Part shown: positions 517 to 7,875 of the stretch, piece after piece
How the letters are laid out: each line of letters starts with the position of its first letter
Position numbering within the stretch: position 1 is the first letter of the stretch
Origin: Desulfobacterales bacterium
GTDB lineage: Bacteria > Desulfobacterota > Desulfobacteria > Desulfobacterales > JAUWMJ01
Assembly (NCBI GenBank): GCA_030613225.1
Contig: JAUWMJ010000124.1
Coordinates: forward strand, 1 to 7,875
Reading direction: 5' to 3'
Length of the DNA stretch: 7,875 nt
Notes under the pieces: generated by a model
Database searches by the model: none
What the model saw: only the letters and a program-made list of their open reading frames with translations
What the model was told of the DNA's origin: nothing
Translations under genes and position numbers: made by a program

Positions 517-626
517 TCGCCTTCCTTGAACTTGAACAAACTGAAACGTTTTGTAACTGGCTCCCTCTTTTAAAAAAAGAACGCTTTTCAAGGGTCTCGA
601 TTAAGGCGTTTGACTTGATAACAATA

Positions 627-959
627 CTAACGCCCGCCTGAGCCTCTTCCGGATATACCCCTTCCTGCAAGCGGATTATAAAGCTTTATGATAGCAAATT
701 TCATACAATCAAGGGTCTTTACTTCAGATATGACTGTCATAAGCGTATTCTCCCCATCTTCAGGTAGTACGCATGCATTAGAATCGTCGAATGTAAGATC
801 TTTAAAGCCTTTTAGCAGTTTCTTTTTATCCTTTTTTGTCATTTCCACCTGAATAGCCTTCTTACCGTCTATTTCAGTAACCTTATCGGCTATGCCGGCA
901 TCTTCAATCTGCTTGAGTTTTGCATCATCCAAAAAAACATTAATGTAAAAATCCGCCAT
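627..959 (-). CDS. Hypothetical protein, 110 residues, unrecognised
   Basis: I do not recognise this family. The start is fixed by a strong AGGAGG ribosome site (970-965) five nt before the ATG at 959; a longer frame starting at 986 would put that site inside the coding region. The protein begins MADFYINVFLDD and has a highly charged middle with the run TKKDKKKLLKG near residues 50-60. A hydrophobic segment near residues 90-98 follows, then a Gly/Arg-rich tail (GRGISGRGSGGR). No signal peptide or convincing membrane helix is seen, so it is probably cytoplasmic. A near-consensus promoter lies about 70 nt upstream. The gene points the same way as pstB, 217 nt ahead of it, so co-transcription is possible but loose. 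The glycine-rich end may be readthrough into non-coding sequence after a late frameshift. Confidence 0.7.
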   Translation of the reverse strand: MADFYINVFLDDAKLKQIEDAGIADKVTEIDGKKAIQVEMTKKDKKKLLKGFKDLTFDDSNACVLPEDGENTLMTVISEVKTLDCMKFAIIKLYNPLAGRGISGRGSGGR

Positions 960-1033
960 GAGTACCTCCTTCTTTTTAAATTTCAAATAAAAATATTAAA
1001 AGCCCCTTTTTTCTCCAACCTTTATATCTGGTT

Positions 1034-1062
1034 TTTATATTATCAATACTTTCTCCTGTCAA
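1034..1062 (-). promoter_or_regulatory. Sigma-70 type promoter for the 110-residue gene
   Basis: On the minus strand, TTGACA (1062-1057) is separated by exactly 17 nt from TATAAA (1039-1034). Initiation would fall near 1027, giving a leader of about 68 nt before the ATG at 959, with AGGAGG near its end. The -35 box lies inside one arm of a 10-bp inverted repeat (1057-1066 and 1113-1122). Confidence 0.6.
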
Positions 1063-1122
1063 GAAACTATTCTTCCGTTTTTTATTAAGACAATGTATAT
1101 TGCCACTTGTTTTTTCTTGACA
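1057..1122. repeat. 10-bp inverted repeat carrying divergent TTGACA boxes
   Basis: TGTCAAGAAA (1057-1066) is the exact reverse complement of TTTCTTGACA (1113-1122), with 46 nt between. The left arm provides the -35 box of the minus-strand promoter. The right arm holds a TTGACA facing the TPR gene, but 17 nt further on there is only TACTTA, a poor -10. The pair may be a regulator target between divergent genes. Confidence 0.35.
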
Positions 1123-1202
1123 ATCAACAGTTGCTGCCGTACTTACCCTGAAAGTTTTCAATCTAAAAGAGACCTTGGAAAAATGGTAATTTTTGTATGT
1201 CG

Positions 1203-1219
1203 TCCCGCCGTTGGCGGGA
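1203..1219. repeat. Short GC-rich hairpin, 7-bp stem and 3-nt loop
   Basis: TCCCGCC, loop GTT, GGCGGGA form a perfect tight stem in an otherwise AT-rich intergenic region of about 320 nt (960-1280). No T-tract follows on either strand, so a classical intrinsic terminator is unlikely. It lies about 60 nt upstream of the TPR gene start and may be a REP-like unit. Apart from this hairpin, the promoter and the 10-bp inverted repeat, I see nothing else in this gap. Confidence 0.35.
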
Positions 1220-1280
1220 AACAAAAAGTGCCGGTTTGCAAAGATCTCGCAAAATAACTATCATTTATAAGGATAAAACC

Positions 1281-1904
1281 ATGACTAAAGCAAAAAATGC
1301 CGAAGAATATATCGCCATGCAACGGGCTGCCATTGCCGGCAACCCGGAATGCGGAACATCTCATTACAACCTTGCGGTTGGGCTTCTGGGGCTGAAAAAA
1401 TACGATGAAGCTGAAAAAGAGCTTTTTGCTGCTATTGACTGCAGCCCGAATCTTGCCGAGGCTTATGTGCAACTCGGTGGAATTTGTCTGCAGAGGGGGG
1501 ATATGGAAGGTTGCCTTGATTATAATAAGCGGGCAGTCAAGTCAAGAGCCGGATTTTCAGAAGGATGGGCAAACATAGGGTTTGCACAGCTTCAGCTGGG
1601 AAAGATTGAAGATGCGATTTACGCTCTTGAAAAAGCGATAAGATGGAACCCGAACTTCCTTCAGGCTTACACAACACTGGCAAATGCATATCTGATAAAA
1701 GGGATGGTAGATGAAAGCATAGAGACAAACTTAAAGGCTCTTAAACTTGAAGAGGGCTTTGCCGTTGCACATAATAATCTGGCAGTCGCATATCTGGAGA
1801 AAAAACATTATGAAATGGCCGTGCAGCATTGCGACAAAGCTGTTGAACTCGGTTACGAAGTCGCGCCGGAAATACTCAAAGAGATTGAACAGCACAGGAC
1901 CTAA
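1281..1904 (+). CDS. Tetratricopeptide repeat (TPR) protein, 207 residues
   Basis: This is a soluble protein made almost entirely of TPR units, helix-turn-helix repeats that act as protein-protein docking scaffolds. Five units of about 34 residues can be placed near residues 25-58, 59-92, 93-126, 127-160 and 161-194. Typical signatures include HYNLAVGLLGLKKYDEAEKE, AYVQLGGICLQRGDMEGCLD, WANIGFAQLQLGKIEDAIYA, AYTTLANAYLIKGMVDESIE and AHNNLAVAYLEKKHYEMAVQ. There is no signal peptide, membrane helix or catalytic domain, so it is probably a cytoplasmic adaptor; the partner cannot be told from sequence. The ATG at 1281 is chosen because AAGGA (1269-1273) lies 7 nt upstream; an in-frame ATG at 1197 lacks such a site and starts across the 1203-1219 hairpin. 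A weak promoter (TTGCAA 1236, 17 nt, TATCAT 1259) precedes it but would initiate very close to the ribosome site. It is flanked by a divergent gene and a palindromic repeat, so it is probably monocistronic. Confidence 0.9.
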   Translation: MTKAKNAEEYIAMQRAAIAGNPECGTSHYNLAVGLLGLKKYDEAEKELFAAIDCSPNLAEAYVQLGGICLQRGDMEGCLDYNKRAVKSRAGFSEGWANIGFAQLQLGKIEDAIYALEKAIRWNPNFLQAYTTLANAYLIKGMVDESIETNLKALKLEEGFAVAHNNLAVAYLEKKHYEMAVQHCDKAVELGYEVAPEILKEIEQHRT

Positions 1905-1909
1905 CGATA

Positions 1910-2017
1910 AATTGAAGATTGTCGATTGAAAATTGATGATTGAAGGATGAAAATCTTTTTAATAAAATCGATTGAGCGTAACGACTTCCACCAATCTTCA
2001 ATCATCAATCTTCAATT
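1910..2017. repeat. Foldback array of 14-nt units, three direct and two inverted
   Basis: Just after the TPR stop codon there are three tandem 14-nt units related to ATTGAAGATTGATG (1911-1924, 1925-1938, 1939-1952). After a 39-nt unrelated spacer come two units in inverted orientation (about 1991-2018), with cores CAATCTTCAAT at 1992 and CAATCTTCAATT at 2006. The outer arms AATTGAAGATTG (1910-1921) and CAATCTTCAATT (2006-2017) are perfect 12-bp complements. The whole can fold into one long hairpin. It might work as a bidirectional transcription stop, but it has no U-tract typical of an intrinsic terminator. No coding sequence is present in 1905-2080. Confidence 0.7.
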
Positions 2018-2044
2018 ACTAACATTCCCATTCGGCAACATCGC

Positions 2045-2077
2045 CAACAACTTGTTGATATAATGGCGCTAAGCGCC
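2045..2077 (+). promoter_or_regulatory. Possible -10 element with palindromes before the kinase-like gene
   Basis: A perfect TATAAT (2059-2064) follows a 13-nt palindrome CAACAACTTGTTG (2045-2057) and precedes a small hairpin GGCGC-TAA-GCGCC (2065-2077) that ends 3 nt before the ATG. No good -35 lies at the expected distance, so activator dependence or chance is possible. Initiation near 2071 would leave a leader of only about 10 nt. Confidence 0.3.
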
Positions 2078-2080
2078 TAA

Positions 2081-3274
2081 ATGAAAATACCCATGCCGAA
2101 CAAGCCGCAATTTAATTATTTCCTCTCAAACATAAAAAATCAGGTTCAAAAAGACAGCAAGATCTGGAAATCCTCAATACCTGTGAGCTTAAAGCAGCCC
2201 AAAGAGACTTCCGGCATTTTTTTTTGTTATGGGGATTATTTTGCAGCAGCCCGATCTTTCCTTTCGGCAAACGACTGCAAAACAATCATAACTGCTGTAT
2301 CACAGTCCACAAATCAAAATATAAAGCTTTCAGACATCAAGAGTGTTAATATCTTTCAGGAAAAACACGGAGAATTTTATCATCCTGCACGGATCGAAAC
2401 GATTGTCGGAGAAAAAAAATTTTCGTTTGTATTGAATGTTGCTGTTTCCGAAACAGGAATAAGCTGTATTAAAAGAGAATATGAACTATTGCAAAAATTG
2501 AGCAGGAAATTTAAAAATTCATACATCCCGGATGTTTACGGCAAAGATGAAATCCGACTTACCAACAATCTTAACATTAGCATGTTTTTAGGGCAATGGT
2601 TTGAAGGTTATAACGAATTTCACATTTCACATGAGCAGGCTGATTCGAGCAAAAAAATACTTGTATGGGACCCTGTTCGCGGCGGCTTTTTCCTTTCAAA
2701 AAATCAGACAAGGAACCTTTACAGGCAGGCCGCAATGATTCTTACCTTCTATTATGATATTGAGACCTTTAACCAAATATTTCCATGGCACCATGCAGCA
2801 GGAGATTTTGTTATAAAAATTAAAGACGATGAGATAGACCTGAAGCTCATTACTGTCCGGCAATATGCGCCCATATTTGATAATAATAGAATTGAAATAA
2901 AAGACAGAGATTTAAAATTCATCATTGAAGGTATGCTTGTATTTTTTTTAAATCTGTCAATCAGGATGCGTCTTGACAGATTAGACGGAGTCGGAGATAT
3001 TGTATGGTCTGATGATTGCGCTGTTGAAGAAACCCTTAAAGGATTTTACCAGGCTCTGGCTTTAAAACCACAGATTCCGTTAATTCCTGTGCCCCAGGTT
3101 GATTTTTTCCTGGATTATCTGTCAGCTTTGCCTGAGTCACAACTATATGATCTGTCTTTATCCATTGCAGATGCATATAATCCTGTGTCCCCGGAAGTTC
3201 CGGTCATTAAAGATCAGCTTAAATCGCATGTTGCTTCTCTTTATAACTCAATCAAAGAACATCCTCCCTGTTAA
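2081..3274 (+). CDS. Hypothetical protein, 397 residues, possible kinase-like (APH) fold
   Basis: No family is recognised with certainty. Several features recall the aminoglycoside-phosphotransferase/protein-kinase fold in order. A beta-rich stretch (residues 104-121) is followed by a helix with KREYELLQKL (131-140), like helix C with its conserved Glu. A hinge-like FLGQWFEGYNEFH follows (169-181), then WHHAAGDFVIK (236-246), which resembles the catalytic-loop pattern HGDxxxxN/D. This is inference, since the ATP-binding lysine is not clearly placed. There is no signal peptide or membrane helix. A stop codon (TAA) sits directly before the ATG at 2081, so translation cannot start further upstream. 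Neither this ATG nor the one at 2093 has a Shine-Dalgarno sequence, so initiation is unusual or leaderless. The 3' end overlaps the convergent transglutaminase-like gene by 23 bp. Confidence 0.85.
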   Translation: MKIPMPNKPQFNYFLSNIKNQVQKDSKIWKSSIPVSLKQPKETSGIFFCYGDYFAAARSFLSANDCKTIITAVSQSTNQNIKLSDIKSVNIFQEKHGEFYHPARIETIVGEKKFSFVLNVAVSETGISCIKREYELLQKLSRKFKNSYIPDVYGKDEIRLTNNLNISMFLGQWFEGYNEFHISHEQADSSKKILVWDPVRGGFFLSKNQTRNLYRQAAMILTFYYDIETFNQIFPWHHAAGDFVIKIKDDEIDLKLITVRQYAPIFDNNRIEIKDRDLKFIIEGMLVFFLNLSIRMRLDRLDGVGDIVWSDDCAVEETLKGFYQALALKPQIPLIPVPQVDFFLDYLSALPESQLYDLSLSIADAYNPVSPEVPVIKDQLKSHVASLYNSIKEHPPC

Positions 3275-3947
3275 AATCTCGGGGCGATAGTCCTCCTGAC
3301 TTTTCGAAAGCCTCTATCCATTTCCTGACCCTTTCTTTTCCATAAGTTCCCTCCCATGCGGTTACAATATCATCAACCGGAATATCTGCATAAGTTCCGT
3401 GATCCTCCAGATATTCCATGAACTGTTTTTTTTCCAGGCTGTATGGCTGGAAGATGGAATCCTCCAGGCCGTTAAATTCGAGGGGGACGACTTTATGTCT
3501 CTTGCAGAGTTCAACATTAAAGGCGGGTGTGGCTTTAACCCATCTGCCATCCAGGTAGAATTCTGTAAACCCATGATAGACAAACAGATCCGTACCCAGA
3601 AACTCTATCAGCTGCCTGGTGGCCAGGTGATTTCTCACAGTGGCAAAACCGACGCGTGACGAAACCCCGCACGCTCTTCCCAATGCACATAGGAGCGACG
3701 CTTTGCTCACACAATATCCCCGTCCGCTTTTCAATACATTGCTTGCCCGGTAATGCTCGGCACGGTAAAATGGATAATAGGGATCGTACCAGATTCCATC
3801 TCTGACTGCGTAGTAGAGTTTTACGGACTTTTCAACCGCTGAACTTACGGCAGTACCGATAATCTTTTCAGCATGTTCAAGAATAATCGGACTGTCGCTG
3901 TCTATCATGGCTGTCGGTAAAAGATACGCTTCGTCGATCTTGTCCAT
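3252..3947 (-). CDS. Transglutaminase-like (papain-fold) protein, 231 residues
   Basis: This belongs to the bacterial transglutaminase-like superfamily, whose members use a Cys-His-Asp triad mostly for proteolysis or amide chemistry. The nucleophile motif is SGRGYCVSKASLLCALGRA with Cys79, followed by CGVSSRVGFATVRNH, a typical core continuation. The histidine motif is VYHGFTEFYLDGRWVKATPA with His125. The third triad position, normally Asp in a W-V-x-x-D-P pattern, reads Thr140 here (WVKATPAFN), so the chemistry may differ or another residue may serve. No signal peptide is seen, so it is probably cytoplasmic. I chose the ATG at 3947 (MDKIDEAYLL) because GGAG lies 11 nt upstream; an in-frame ATG at 3980 would add 11 residues but has a weaker site. 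It converges on the kinase-like gene. Substrate unknown. Confidence 0.85.
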   Translation of the reverse strand: MDKIDEAYLLPTAMIDSDSPIILEHAEKIIGTAVSSAVEKSVKLYYAVRDGIWYDPYYPFYRAEHYRASNVLKSGRGYCVSKASLLCALGRACGVSSRVGFATVRNHLATRQLIEFLGTDLFVYHGFTEFYLDGRWVKATPAFNVELCKRHKVVPLEFNGLEDSIFQPYSLEKKQFMEYLEDHGTYADIPVDDIVTAWEGTYGKERVRKWIEAFEKSGGLSPRDFNREDVL

Positions 3948-4011
3948 TTTTCTATTTTCTCCATACAATGTCATTGACATTTCGTCATCTTTCGATTTTT
4001 CTTTATCAGAA

Positions 4012-4030
4012 GGTTATCCGCAGTAATTAT
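4012..4030 (+). repeat. Left inverted repeat bracketing the higBA module
   Basis: GGTTATCCGCAGTAATTAT lies 3 nt beyond the stop codon of higA. Its reverse complement, with one mismatch in 19, occurs at 4671-4689 upstream of the higB promoter. The sequence is also the outer arm of the attC-like site there, so this may be the surviving edge of a truncated site. Homology to that site stops outside 4012. Confidence 0.7.
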
Positions 4031-4033
4031 CAT

Positions 4034-4318
4034 TTAAGCCGCTATACGTTTTAGATGTTTGATATCCACGTCTTGCTTTGCTCTCCACAAATCATATTGA
4101 AGTTGCAGTCTTAACCACCCTTCTGGTGAACGACCGAAAACCTTCGAAAGCCTAAGGGACATTCCAGGACTAATACCTGATTTGCCGTTCAAGAGCATTG
4201 ATAGTGTTTTTCTGGTAACACCAAGAGATTCCGCTGCCTTAGTGACAGTTAAATTAAGTGGCTCAACACAGATTTCCTTTATTATTTCGCCCGGGTGCGG
4301 TGGATTATGCATAGCCAT
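4034..4318 (-). CDS. higA: HigA-family antitoxin, XRE-type helix-turn-helix, 94 residues
   Basis: HigA neutralises the HigB toxin and, bound to it, represses the operon. The N-terminus [13 protein letters not shown] is the family hallmark. A helix-turn-helix spans about residues 24-47, with [20 protein letters not shown] and then [20 protein letters not shown]. The C-terminal [13 protein letters not shown] is the usual dimer/toxin-contact end. Length is normal for the family. The ATG at 4318 has an AAAGGAG ribosome site that overlaps the higB stop codon; 11 nt separate the two frames, so translation is probably coupled. Toxin-first order, as here, is the classic higBA arrangement. The intact frame and motifs indicate a working module. 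Confidence 0.95.
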
Positions 4319-4329
4319 AATATACTCCT

Positions 4330-4608
4330 TTAGTGATAATCTTCATAATTTACATCGAAGACATCTCCTTTTTTAAGTTTAAATGTAACTCGCCAGTTTC
4401 CTGACACTTGCACTGACCAAGTCCCTTTTCGTTTACCTTTAAGTGCATGAAACTTTAGGCCAGGCAAATCCATATCATCAAGAATTTCAGCCGTTTCAAG
4501 GAGTGCCAGGATTTGCCTTAAGCGCTTTAAATGCTGTTGTTTGACTCCAGAGGAAATGCCAGATTCAAATAATTTCTTTAATCCTTTATGTTTGAATTTT
4601 TGTATCAT
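4330..4608 (-). CDS. higB: HigB-family toxin (RelE/ParE superfamily mRNA interferase), 92 residues
   Basis: HigB toxins cut mRNA on the ribosome and stop growth when the antitoxin is lost. The protein shows the family pattern: N-terminal [17 protein letters not shown], a helical region with [35 protein letters not shown] (residues 48-66), then [10 protein letters not shown] (69-78) and the C-terminal end DVNYEDYH. Length matches the usual 92. The start at 4608 has no clear Shine-Dalgarno sequence, but the promoter places initiation about 10 nt upstream, so the mRNA is almost leaderless. That would keep toxin synthesis low relative to HigA, whose ribosome site is strong. It forms an operon with higA downstream. 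Complete toxin-antitoxin cassettes with their own promoter are typical cargo of chromosomal integrons, which fits the attC-like sites nearby. Confidence 0.95.
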
Positions 4609-4652: not shown

Positions 4653-4670
4653 GTGAAAAAGGAGGCGAAT

Positions 4671-4689
4671 ATAATTATTGCGGATAACC
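4671..4689 (-). repeat. Right inverted repeat bracketing the higBA module
   Basis: Read on the minus strand this is GGTTATCCGCAATAATTAT, matching the left copy at 4012-4030 in 18 of 19 positions and facing it. The pair encloses exactly the higBA operon with its promoter. This arm is at the same time the end of the attC-like site at 4671-4777. Confidence 0.7.
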
Positions 4690-4777
4690 AGCGGGCCTAG
4701 GTACTAACGAATGAGCTTAAAACTTGAATGGGAAACGGCCAGATTTCTTCCCGTCCGGTTCATCCGCTATATTATGC
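4671..4777 (-). repeat. attC-like foldback site A, 107 nt
   Basis: Read on the minus strand, the site starts GCATAAT, then GCGGATGAACCGGACGGG. It ends CCCGCTGGTTATCCGC, then AATA and ATTAT. The two long arms pair as three blocks (GCGGAT, AACCGG, CGGG) with two unpaired bases, a G and an A, on the first arm only. The short outer boxes ATAAT/ATTAT pair again after a small unpaired spacer. Paired outer box, spacer, inner arms with extrahelical bases on one side and a variable centre is the architecture of integron attC sites. The canonical AAC/GTT is changed to AAT/ATT here, with pairing kept. The higA-remnant stop codon lies inside the outer box, as is common for cassettes. It could instead be an unrelated palindromic repeat. 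Confidence 0.5.
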
Positions 4778-5011
4778 TCCGGTAGTATGCTCAAATCCTG
4801 TCTGTGTGGTTTTAACTGGAATAATTCTTTGCTTGATATCAAACCATATTTTACGCTTCATCATTCTCAAATCAAATTCAGTCTGCAAATTCAGCCAAAA
4901 CTGAGCCTCAAGCCCAAAATAGCGCTGTAGTCTCAATGCGGTGTCGGCAGTGATGGATCTTTTCCCGTTAACAATCTCGCTGATCCGATTGGGAGGGACA
5001 GAAAGATAATG
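4772..5011 (-). pseudogene. C-terminal remnant of a second HigA-type antitoxin (79 codons)
   Basis: On the minus strand from 5011, the frame reads HYLSVPPNRISEIVNGKRSI, then TADTALRLQRYFGLEAQFWL and NLQTEFDLRM. This matches the second half of the helix-turn-helix and the C-terminal region of HigA/VapI-type antitoxins. The N-terminal half, with the PGE motif and first helices, is missing. A TAG stop sits directly upstream of the first homologous codon, and no start codon or ribosome site is available. No matching toxin gene remains nearby. The sequence differs clearly from the intact higA at 4034-4318, so it is not a duplicate of it. The broken edge coincides with the 3' end of the HAD phosphatase gene, so the junction arose by deletion or recombination. 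Confidence 0.8.
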
Positions 5012-5675
5012 CTATGTCCGGTGTTGTCTCCGATTCAATAAAAACGGCCAAATCGGAAATGGTGTCGAAGATAAAATCCGGTTTTGATAAGGTAAGTTCC
5101 TCCCGGGAACCATAACCGTAACTCACCGCTGCGGTCAATATAAAATTCTTTTTTCCGCCAACGATATCATGAGATCGATCACCGACGATTAGAGTAGTTT
5201 TTGGATCAAGGTTCTCAGTATTAAGAATATGAGCTACAAGTTCACTTTTATCCGATAAGTGGCCATTAAGTTCACTTCCATAAACAGCATTGAAAAATGG
5301 AGTGAGGTTGAAATAGTCAAGAATTTGTTTTGCGAAAACTTTGGGCTTGGATGTTGCCAAAAAGACACGAAACCCTGCTGCCTTTATTCTTCGAAGAGAT
5401 GGAATAACATCAGGGTAAATAACGTTTTCGAACATTCCGCACTCAGAGAATCTTTTTCGATAATGGAATAGAGCCTGATCGAGCAGGGTGCCATCCTTTG
5501 TATTCAAAAGTCGAGAGAAAGAGCCTCTAAGGGGTGGACCAATACACCAGTCGAGTTGATCAACTCCAGGTGATATTGCACCAAGCTGATCAAGAGCAAA
5601 TTGAATGCAACGAGTTATACCATCCTTAGGATCTGTAAGTGTCCCATCTAAATCAAATAAAATATTTGAAAGCAT
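4968..5675 (-). CDS. HAD-superfamily phosphatase, phosphoglycolate phosphatase-like, 235 residues
   Basis: This is a HAD hydrolase that removes phosphate from a small metabolite through an aspartyl-phosphate intermediate; it resembles the Gph/PGP branch. Motif I is LFDLDGTLTD with nucleophile and acid/base Asp near residues 8-10, followed by a helical cap. Motif II is VFLATSKPK, motif III is probably the Lys in DKSELV, and motif IV is LIVGDRSHDIVGGKKN. All catalytic motifs are present. The ATG at 5675 is chosen because the motif-I strand follows at once; it has no evident Shine-Dalgarno site and lies 12 nt from the attC-like site B, a spacing usual for cassette genes. The last 14-15 residues (about ALSFCPSQSDQRDC) are encoded out of frame within the higA remnant, so the native C-terminus is probably replaced. 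Substrate specificity cannot be read from sequence. Confidence 0.9.
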   Translation of the reverse strand: MLSNILFDLDGTLTDPKDGITRCIQFALDQLGAISPGVDQLDWCIGPPLRGSFSRLLNTKDGTLLDQALFHYRKRFSECGMFENVIYPDVIPSLRRIKAAGFRVFLATSKPKVFAKQILDYFNLTPFFNAVYGSELNGHLSDKSELVAHILNTENLDPKTTLIVGDRSHDIVGGKKNFILTAAVSYGYGSREELTLSKPDFIFDTISDLAVFIESETTPDIALSFCPSQSDQRDC

Positions 5676-5687
5676 AATTTTGCATTC

Positions 5688-5795
5688 ACAGAACGATTGA
5701 GGATAACCAGCGGGCCTGATGCATTTCAAGATAGCACAACGTTTTACGAAAAAATCCGTAAGTAATTCCCGTCTGGTTCATCCGCCTGGTTGTAT
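5688..5795 (-). repeat. attC-like foldback site B, 108 nt
   Basis: Read on the minus strand, the site starts ATACAAC, then CAGGCGGATGAACCAGACGG. It ends CCCGCTGGTTATCC, then TCAATC and GTTCTGT. The inner arms pair as GGAT, AACCAG, CGGG with the same two unpaired bases (G, A) as in site A. AAC and GTT are present at the outer boxes, as in integron attC sites. Compared with site A, the plus-strand left ends match in 21 of 22 bases (5696-5717 with 4677-4698) and the right ends in 19 of 20 (5766-5785 with 4748-4767), while the centres are unrelated. The site lies just upstream of the HAD gene, so A and B together bound one putative cassette of about 1.0 kb. No integrase is in the window. Confidence 0.5.
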
Positions 5796-5815
5796 GCCGG
5801 GCACGGCACACATTC

Positions 5816-6040
5816 TTAAGGGTAAGCCTATACGTTCCAGTTATGGAAGTCAAGGCAAGTCCCAAGCCCAGCCAGATGGAAGCGAAGGGTAGCCTAAGGC
5901 AACCACCTTCGCGTAAAAAACTATGGCGGTCAAGAGAGTGTTGCAGTGATGTAACATCTGAAGGAAGTCGGCGGCAAAAAGCGTGGTTCGACGTACAGGT
6001 ATGCCCCGTATCAAAGGTAGAGGGCAGGCAGATTTAAGGC
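5816..6040 (+). mobile_element. Probable group II intron fragment (5' domain I part), no reverse transcriptase
   Basis: This stretch is non-coding but strongly structured, and its wording recalls bacterial group II intron domain I, notably CTGAAGGAAGTCGGCGGCAA near 5958. Hairpins seen are TTCCA-GTTA-TGGAA (5835-5848), GCGAAGG/CCTTCGC (5882-5888 with 5906-5912, enclosing GCC-TAA-GGC), and TGTTGCA-GTGA-TGTAACA (5939-5956), whose loop is a GNRA tetraloop. A 64-codon open frame at 5843 lies across these hairpins and is not credible as a protein. No reverse transcriptase, no domain V hairpin and no clear GTGYG start were found, so at most the 5' part survives. It lies directly beside attC-like site B, in opposite orientation to the cassette genes, as for group IIC-attC introns. 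Recognition is from memory and needs a covariance search. Confidence 0.45.
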
Positions 6041-6049
6041 GGGGGGCGC

Positions 6050-7103
6050 TCAGTGATGAGCATCCCTATCCTGATATGTGTTTTCTTCATTGCTTTTCAA
6101 AAGTTTTTTAATTTCACGGTCAAAATCCGATTCTATTTTTTGTACTTTATTAAATTTATCATATTCTGACGATGCTTTTTCCATTGCTTGCTTGTGCGGA
6201 AACAGTGCCCTTTCCAGTCAATATTTTATATTCATTAAAGGATAGAAAATTATTTACACTTTGGGCAAACTCTTCCATTTTAAAAGAGATTCTGTTTTCA
6301 ATAATGTTTTCGATATAGTCGAAAAAACCGGAAATGATTCTTTCCAATCTTTATATCTCTTTTTCTTGTAGATAGTTTTTGGCAATTCTTGCATCTGATT
6401 TTAATATTCTGCCATCAGGAGAATTTTTCCAGGTAGTTAGTCCCATAAACTCTTTATCAGAATCAGCATTTTGGTACAAAATCTCGGCTGCTGTTTGTCC
6501 TGAAATTGCAAAATGAAATTTGTTCTGTATTGTCGCATAAAAATCTTTTGTAATATCTGATTTTGAATCGTAATCTATGCTGCATTCGGCAAAAATATCA
6601 GTTATCTGTTGATAAATTCTCCGTTCACTTGCACGAATAGAGCGGACTCTTTCAAGCAGCTCACGAAAATAATCTTTACCAAAATATCTGCCATTTTTAA
6701 GTCTTTCATCATCAAGTATAAAACCTTTGATCATATACTCTTTTAGACGCTCTGTTGCCCAAATTCTAAACTTTGTTGCCTGCGAAGAGTTTACTCTATA
6801 ACCGACGGATATGATTGCGTCCAGATTGTAGTATTTTGTCTTATAATTTTTACCATCTTCGGCAGTATGTTCCAGAATGGAACTAACTGAATTTTCTTCT
6901 AACTCTCCTTCTTTTTTAATGTTGTTCAAGTGTTTGGTTATAGCAGGCCGCTGAACACCAAAAAGCTCTGCCATTCGTTTTTGGGTAAGCCATATATTTT
7001 CATTATGAAAAAATATTTCAACTTTAACCTTTCCATCTGGGGAGGAGTAAAGCAGAAATTCGGTTAATTCGTCTTTTACCGTTAGTTTATTTTTATTAGA
7101 CAT
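6050..7103 (-). pseudogene. rhuM: RhuM-family (virulence-type) protein, broken by one stop and one frameshift
   Basis: RhuM proteins are accessory DNA-binding-like proteins, first named in a Salmonella pathogenicity island; their biochemical role is not established. The N-terminal 250 residues are intact and typical: IFFHNENIWLTQKRMAELFG (a helix-turn-helix), EGELEENSV, YYNLDAIISVGYRVNSSQAT, FRIWATERLKEYMIKGFILD and DERLKNG. After KEI an in-frame TAA (6353-6351) interrupts; the same frame continues with RLERIISGFFDYIENIIENR and FLSFNEYKILTGKGTVSA. An extra base near 6194 then shifts the frame, and KQAMEKASSEYDKFN to SDFDREIKKLLKS continues to a TGA at 6052-6050. Joined together it gives about 350 residues, the usual family length. 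Both lesions hit the C-terminal third; a truncated 250-residue product could still be made. The start at 7103 has only a weak ribosome site. Confidence 0.85.
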
Positions 7104-7597: not shown

Positions 7598-7809
7598 TTA
7601 GGGCTCGGAAAATAATAACTTGGCATTTTATGCACCCCAAGGGCATTTGCTTCGCGGCACATCCCAGCTTCAGGCCGGATTTGGCCGTTCCTCAATCGCG
7701 AAGTCCTCGAAATAGCTTGCTATTCCTGTGGCTTCACTCAATCGGATCGACCAAATCCGACCTAAATCTGAGCGCCTAAAATACCAATTTATTTTTTACC
7801 GAGCCCTTA
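7598..7809. mobile_element. MITE-like foldback element with 33-bp terminal inverted repeats
   Basis: The ends are inverted repeats of 33 bp matching in 28 positions without gaps. The left end (7598-7630) starts TTAGGGCTCGG and ends CATTTTA; the right end read in reverse (7809-7777) starts TAAGGGCTCGG and ends TATTTTA. Inside lies a 92-bp palindrome. The element encodes nothing credible, which fits a miniature inverted-repeat element moved in trans. Bases just outside (CAC and TCT) do not form an obvious target duplication, so age or a different mechanism is possible. Confidence 0.6.
7672..7763. repeat. 92-bp palindrome inside the foldback element
   Basis: AGGCCGGATTTGGCCG (7672-7687) pairs with CGACCAAATCCGACCT (7748-7763), 14 of 16 exact and the other two G-U compatible. 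The tip AATAGC-TT-GCTATT (7711-7724) has exactly the same centre (7717/7718). The middle pairs only partly. CTCAATCG also occurs as a direct repeat on both arms (7691 and 7737). Confidence 0.65.
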
Positions 7810-7875
7810 TCTATTATATCAAAATGTTATAATTTAGTTAGCAGTAGATGAGACTTTCTACGACGCCATCATCAT

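Follow-up and report, generated by a model that had tools for sequence, protein, structure and literature searches.

CALINs, clusters of attC sites that lack an integron-integrase, are defined as at least two attC sites lying less than 4 kb apart, and they outnumber the integrons with intI in Bacteria (PMC9668308). Integrons have been reported in Deltaproteobacteria (PMC2426708), and a covariance model was made for the attC sites of this group (PMC8352920). One of the extrahelical bases of the folded site, a G, was described as absolutely conserved and essential for strand selectivity, and its replacement by C lowered integration only 2.7-fold (Bouvier 2009, PMC2727003). According to a later account, most attC sites have this G and blaVIM-2 is the one cassette named with C, despite the fact that wild-type attCdfrA1 is written A-N7-8-C in the same paper, where mutation of the bulge to C raised excision by IntI3, IntI2*179E and SonIntIA (PMC3053210). 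The bulge nearer the R box is counted first in PMC2727003 and second in PMC3053210. For group IIC-attC introns, insertion at TTGT/T was described, within the R'' box on the bottom strand of attC and in the orientation opposite to the cassettes (PMC7923331).

The window analysed here is a stretch of 7,875 nt, whose host is probably a Desulfobacterales species, a sulfate reducer. We are highly confident that its sites A and B, when read on the minus strand, represent integron attC sites and that the window holds the decaying end of a chromosomal cassette array. This assignment is based on the fold and ends of the two sites, the one-strand arrays formed by their relatives, the covariation of the stems and the integron integrases of the lineage. 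On this strand both sites have the attC layout, in which an R'' box and a spacer precede the L'' arm with its two extra bases, and the variable centre is followed by L', a second spacer and R'. In site A (4669–4777, minus strand), the R'' box lies at 4771–4777 (GCATAAT), the L'' arm at 4750–4765, the L' arm at 4682–4695 and the R' box at 4669–4675 (ATTATAT, where the conserved G of GTT is lost), thus both R-box triplets deviate (AAT and ATT). T4754 and C4761 are extrahelical on the plus strand. Site B (5688–5793, minus strand) includes the R' box at 5688–5694 (GTTCTGT), the L' arm at 5701–5714, the L'' arm at 5768–5783 with T5772 and C5779 extrahelical on the plus strand, and a remnant of R'' at 5789–5793 (GTTGT on the plus strand), the box being cut by an intron. 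The near-identical ends claimed by the original prediction were borne out by comparison within the window, where the left ends (4677–4698 and 5696–5717) agree at 21/22 and the right ends (4748–4767 and 5766–5785) at 19/20 positions (95% each), and the core end occurs twice with up to three mismatches allowed, compared to a mean of 0.01 in shuffled sequences. The two sites are 908 bp apart, well within the 4 kb limit applied to CALINs.

When either strand of A and B was folded as a single strand, each site formed a single stem in which two bases, six pairs apart, stayed unpaired on the same arm; this was the right arm in the plus and the left arm in the minus strand reading. The L'' and L' inverted repeats therefore fold on the bottom strand, as also seen in the covariation of 59 sites (see below), and the extrahelical bases are restricted to the R''–L'' arm, so the prediction that both sites carry the same two extrahelical bases on the same arm proved right. 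The folding energy of the sites compared with shuffled sequence showed no excess stability (z values of 0.01, −0.40, −1.13 and −0.81), thus the case for A and B had to rest on comparison rather than on energy.

Read on the minus strand, the cassette block consists of a RhuM-family gene (probably a former cassette), site B, a HAD gene with a truncated higA, site A, higBA and a cut-off attC, followed by the chromosome at 4009. The HAD-superfamily phosphatase gene (4968–5675, minus strand) starts with the ATG at 5673–5675, about 12 nt from site B as had been stated, and its last residues (VPPNRISEIVNGKRS...) read into an N-terminally truncated HigA antitoxin remnant (4772–5011, minus strand; the right limit given is just where the open frame ends). 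The stop codon of the remnant (4772–4774) falls inside the outer box of site A, also in agreement with the original prediction. The remnant matched TIGR02607 on 4772–4936 with 29.7 bits, under the cut-off of 47.7, and a Pfam scan gave no antitoxin match. The intact type II toxin–antitoxin pair beyond site A is composed of a HigB-like toxin gene (4330–4608, minus strand; PF05015, 67.4 bits, with no NCBIfam match) and a HigA antitoxin gene (4034–4318, minus strand; TIGR02607, 105.1 bits). Immediately after higA, a putative cut-off third attC was found at 4010–4032 (minus strand), composed of TGATAAT, a spacer and GGATAACC without the bulged G. On the minus strand this half-site reads TGATAATTACTGCGGATAACC, and it is one arm of an inverted repeat of 19 nt (95%); we interpret it as the R'' box and the start of L'' of a truncated attC. 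Its left edge coincides with the end of the synteny with a relative (junction 4009/4010). This third site and the intron fragment starting inside B had both been missed previously.

The chromosomal flank ends with a transglutaminase-like gene (3252–4009, minus strand), which is syntenic with the related genome G026 to base 4009. Window positions 618–4009 are about 84 to 86% identical to G026 with the same gene order and a few hundred extra bases in the latter. Synteny with G127 stops at 3960 and that with G026 at 4009, and since the far side of G026 differs from the right part of the window, no clean empty site was found in these two relatives. The same flank encodes a 397-aa protein (2081–3274, plus strand) without Pfam or NCBIfam match, which represents a conserved family: at E ≤ 1e-20 it was found in 216 of the 291 genomes from the order. 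A TPR gene lies upstream of it in G026, G091, G031, G095 and G001, and in the window an inverted repeat (1910–2017; 29-nt arms 86%, 21-nt arms 95%) separates the TPR gene from the 397-aa gene.

To the right of site B, a RhuM-family gene is split into two frames (6159–7103, minus strand; 6351–7103 and 6159–6347, covering PF13310 positions 3–177 and 180–235, respectively), and this pseudogene was probably the cassette that ended in site B. RhuM-family relatives with 68% identity occur in L008 and L010, contigs that also bear one of these attC sites. The block can be regarded as a relic, as originally proposed, because ATT stands in place of GTT in the R' box of A, the intron interrupts the R'' box of B, the third site is cut off, the HAD gene runs into the truncated HigA remnant and the RhuM gene is broken.

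A search for further copies of the ends had been suggested, and a scan of genome contigs with a pattern of both ends and 40 to 70 free bases between them detected 15 contigs, all with deltaproteobacterial titles (ten Deltaproteobacteria bacterium, two Desulfobacterales bacterium, one Desulfobacteraceae bacterium and two Olavius-associated proteobacterium Delta 1), while no match was obtained among viral contigs with both ends as a pattern or among plasmids with site A as the only query. Fourteen of the 15 contig sites (L010 was left out, having the same site as L008) were aligned with A and B. In these 16 sites the outer triplets, which the pattern did not demand, were AAC ahead in 13, GTT behind in 11 and both in 10, placed as RYYYAAC and GTTRRRY boxes would give; L005, for instance, has GCCTAAC and GTTATGT. 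The failures comprised A and L008 (both triplets), L006 (R'') and L002, L009 and L011 (R'), and the AAC counted for L014 is out of register. The covariance model R1 was built from these 16 sites, and consequently the scores of A (88.8 bits) and B (107.6 bits) are not independent of the model that they helped to build. R1, with up to 150 candidates scored per genome, gave at least 80 matches at E ≤ 0.01 in the ten genomes behind these loci, with at least one in each of the ten. At E ≤ 0.05, 84 matches were found in 36 sources, from which two reverse-strand echoes (L004 and L011) were removed, leaving 82 sites for the arm, array and ORF counts. At least 36 attC-model matches occurred in G003 (Olavius-associated proteobacterium Delta 1, one 9.9-Mb assembly), representing a large scattered cassette population; this genome also has 70 TIGR02249 matches, most of them under the cut-off and probably belonging to other tyrosine recombinases.

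All sites lay on one strand in each of the 21 multi-site loci, and in 40 of 41 intervals between neighbouring sites (up to 2.5 kb apart) the longest ORF had the direction of the sites, the window being included in both counts and the exception lying in L080. The median gap between sites was 697 bp, and 17 of the 41 ORFs started, and likewise 17 stopped, within 20 bases of a site. Sites on one strand with small co-directional ORFs between them indicate cassette arrays; thus, the copies of the ends found elsewhere belong to same-strand arrays with small genes between the sites, each site having a gene of the same direction ahead of it.

Integron integrases, for which the original prediction had suggested a search, were found in the same lineage. 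TIGR02249 was matched above its curated cut-off in six of the ten genomes behind the matched loci, in 59 of 116 genomes of the order of G005, and in none of 14 controls (G005 and G007 are common to the two sets). We take this order to be Desulfobacterales, since it includes G010, whose contig L015 bears the title Desulfobacterales bacterium. The closest relatives by the 397-aa protein, G127 (89%), G026 (80%) and G091 (74%), are all from that order. At E ≤ 1e-30, G026 has one integrase match, along with one R1 match, while neither G127 (two R1 matches) nor G091 (none) has any. In one relative, L040, a broken integrase gene lies on the plus and a site on the minus strand, divergent as in an integron. 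Up to E = 1, R1 detected no site in L036, L037, L038, L039 and L041, that is, in five of the seven integrase-contig loci L036–L042, nor in the loci of weaker recombinases, L023–L026; it found one site in L042 (E = 0.28) and two in L040 (1.5e-7 and 0.25).

The linkage was also surveyed by structure only, with a scan for AAC, an arm of 3+1+6+1+3 bases, a loop, the opposite arm and GTT in 61 loci beside integrase genes, some of which are fragments or score under the cut-off. The 61 loci were taken from 67 fetched ones (in L036 and L037 the integrase is close to the contig end; L145, L153, L167 and L171 are too short), and matches with fewer than four of eight R-box agreements were excluded. In 25 loci the scan detected sites on the expected cassette strand, 49 in total, compared to six on the other strand and one in DNA shuffled in three-base blocks (one other shuffle moves single bases). 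In the relatives, the sites are thus linked to integron integrases and divergent from them. The strand of the sites beside integrases identifies the minus strand, on which the HAD gene and higBA lie, as the cassette strand of the window, as originally predicted together with the placement of the bulges in L''.

Within the window, no integrase was found among ten ORFs scanned with profiles, the other listed ORFs being short, and about 2 kb is visible to the right of site B. The claim that the array lacks an integrase holds for the window and reaches no further. The sites may belong to a complete integron, rather than a CALIN, with its integrase gene past position 7875, which would be compatible with A and B being attC sites and would change only the label of the locus. 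In favour of such an arrangement, integrases are frequent in the order, the visible part on the right is short and the minus-strand order of the cassettes puts the integrase on the right side; against it, the array is decaying and the right flank consists of the broken RhuM gene and repeats, with no frame longer than 95 aa beyond that gene. On balance, we regard a complete integron as possible, though unlikely. Concerning the repeats of this flank, an inverted repeat at 7600–7807 (34 nt, 85% complementarity, 140 nt between the arms) is MITE-like, and a 31-base stretch at 7841–7871 is a dispersed repeat of these genomes, 93% identical in L189 (4030–4060) and L194 (2630–2659).

Whatever the label, the sites could in principle be miniature transposable elements or ordinary palindromic repeats, to which higBA and the HAD gene became adjacent by chance. 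The nearly identical ends would fit this, as would the position of higBA between inverted 19-nt half-sites, resembling terminal inverted repeats, even though the cut-off attC also explains the inverted half-site near higBA. The centres likewise deserve attention, since shared centres had been named as a sign of a repeat. The centres of A and B differ from each other, as claimed, while that of B closely resembles the centre of L001 and a loose centre motif is common to many relatives, so they are not unrelated in general. This partial sharing is outweighed by the covariation and the array layout. In 59 sites (E ≤ 2e-6), standard pairs made up 94.1% of the stem cells compared to 73.9% after shuffling, double changes numbered 152 compared to 42.6 and the covariation score was 0.481 compared to 0.142, or at most 0.071 for slid versions, all from an alignment that was fitted to the model and therefore leans towards structure. 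The stem letters thus change pairwise, and the extra bases are found mainly on one arm: the 5' arm (L'') has exactly two in 46 of the 82 sites, six apart in 32 of those 46, and two or three in 65, whereas the 3' arm (L') has none in 46 of the 82. These counts include several short or partial sites that the aligner misplaced, and in some sites, A and B among them, it added gaps outside the stem. Taken together with the one-stranded multi-site loci, the co-directional ORFs and the 49 to 6 preference for the expected strand beside integron integrases, the covariation and the asymmetry of the arms led us to reject the repeat interpretation, which we consider very improbable.

Separate support for B being an attC site came from a truncated group II intron (5794–6050, plus strand; domain I onward, the right end is approximate), which lies after TTGT in the R'' box of the bottom strand, opposite to the cassettes, as the insertion rule of the IIC-attC introns requires. 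The Rfam family group-II-D1D4-3 (RF02001) matched 5940–6047 on the plus strand with 35.5 bits (gathering score 32), and this was the sole Rfam match above the gathering score in the window. Neither a domain V match nor a reverse-transcriptase frame was found for it there, thus its class is deduced from the position and domain I, both pointing to a fragment of the IIC-attC type. The junction 5793/5794 reads GTTGT|ATGCC; the first intron base is A, where the relatives have G. Nine starts of related introns were compared in G005 and G003: GTTGT|GTGCC was seen in eight and GATGT|GTGCC in the ninth (L101). Several related group II introns are present in G005 (L093–L104, including loci from G003), and the hairpins before two of the introns (L097 and L103) resemble attC bottom strands by eye, the second bulge being C in one and G in the other. 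The weakest alternative, namely that A and B are rho-independent terminators or intergenic hairpins that drew a group IIC intron, could appeal to the use of a hairpin upstream of the insertion site by such introns (PMC7923331) and to several related introns adjoining sequence without proof of attC, but we rejected it as still less probable than the repeat, because no T-run follows the stems of A and B, because terminators are not characterised by R-box triplets, an asymmetry of two bulges, an arrangement in arrays or linkage to integrases, and because the stems covary while the bulges keep their positions, which contradicts this reading.

Accepting A and B as attC sites, the identity of their bulged bases still had to be considered. 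The bottom-strand bulges of both sites are T, six bases and C; thus, C occupies the position where an extrahelical G is expected in the bottom-strand L'' box. In the structure survey, whose sites were selected by their integrase, the first bulged base was T in 43 of the 49 sites, and the second base of these, given for the bottom strand, was C in 26, G in 10, A in 5 and T in 2. The 43 T-first sites are spread over 22 loci. A T-N6-C site occurs at least once in 16 of these (of 61 loci surveyed), and 11 of the 16 have a neighbouring integrase that exceeds the cut-off and has no inner stop. With spacings of 5 to 7 allowed, the 62 sites had G in 29, C in 14, T in 14 and A in 5 on the cassette strand (29/62 being C on the bottom strand), but eight sites then appeared on the other strand and six in shuffled DNA, so the wider spacing dilutes the class. 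Since T-N6-C sites were excised by integron integrases (PMC3053210), the C marks a variant and does not exclude membership among attC sites. Accordingly, the divergent attC type suggested by the original prediction stands as regards the second bulged base of the folded strand, C for G, and falls as regards the architecture and the R boxes of the relatives, which are canonical.

The residues that contact this second bulged base in other IntIs were compared in the integrases of 35 loci (VchIntIA numbering via 2A3V). Position 145 was K in 20 of 35 (Q in 8, H in 4), 157 was R in 33, 209 was K in 35, 210 was Y in 32 and 219 was W in 34, the contact residues of IntI1 being K, R, K, Y and W (PMC3053210). 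With C common in the order and integrases that mostly keep the IntI1 contacts, the choice of strand would rest on the presence of the bulge and not on its letter. We therefore favour, with some reservation, the view that T-N6-C is the commonest attC class of the order (taken as Desulfobacterales), with the strand chosen by bulge presence, and that A and B are members of it; the survey of the bulged base covers one order and was made with one script. An integron on a Thiodictyon plasmid, tried as a comparator beyond the order, yielded only two structural matches, too few for comparison, hence the contrast with textbook attC sites rests on the papers of 2009 and 2011. No statement of C as a common second bulge was found among the passages on attC bulges in the papers cited here. 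The T-N6-C population offers unaltered natural pairs of integrase and site, which allow asking whether such sites are more mobile in nature.

Considering these results together with established integron biology, we propose that an integron integrase of the lineage, encoded elsewhere in the genome or acting in trans, bound the plus strand in its folded form (the attC bottom strand, which bears the T-N6-C bulges) and brought in or rearranged the cassettes. Decay of the array would have followed: a deletion may have fused the HAD gene to the HigA remnant, site A would have lost the G of the crossover triplet, and an intron of the group IIC-attC type presumably inserted into the R'' box of B, later becoming truncated as well. 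Judging from the state of the R boxes, A, and probably B, are now predicted to recombine poorly or not at all.

Compared with the known systems, the window resembles a CALIN in having two complete attC sites 0.9 kb apart and a cut-off one around small genes, with no integrase seen in the window, but it differs in that no more than two sites are complete, and both of these have a damaged R box. A and B probably belong to the same population as the chromosomal attC sites of Deltaproteobacteria, and the passages on these in PMC8352920 and PMC2426708 do not mention the bulged base. The intron shares with group IIC-attC introns its position behind the TTGT of the bottom-strand R'' box and its orientation against the transcription of the cassettes (PMC7923331); it differs from them in being truncated, with neither domain V nor a reverse transcriptase detected in the window, and in starting with A instead of G. 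Like T-N6-G sites such as VCR, A and B possess a variable terminal part, R and L boxes and, on one arm, extrahelical bases at a spacing of six to eight, whereas on their bottom strand the bulge closer to the R box is C instead of G (PMC2727003, PMC3053210). By these comparisons an attC call made by eye is settled and placed in an abundant integron population: the locus is of a known kind, an attC cassette array with an intron fragment, and the bulged C is its departure from the textbook site.
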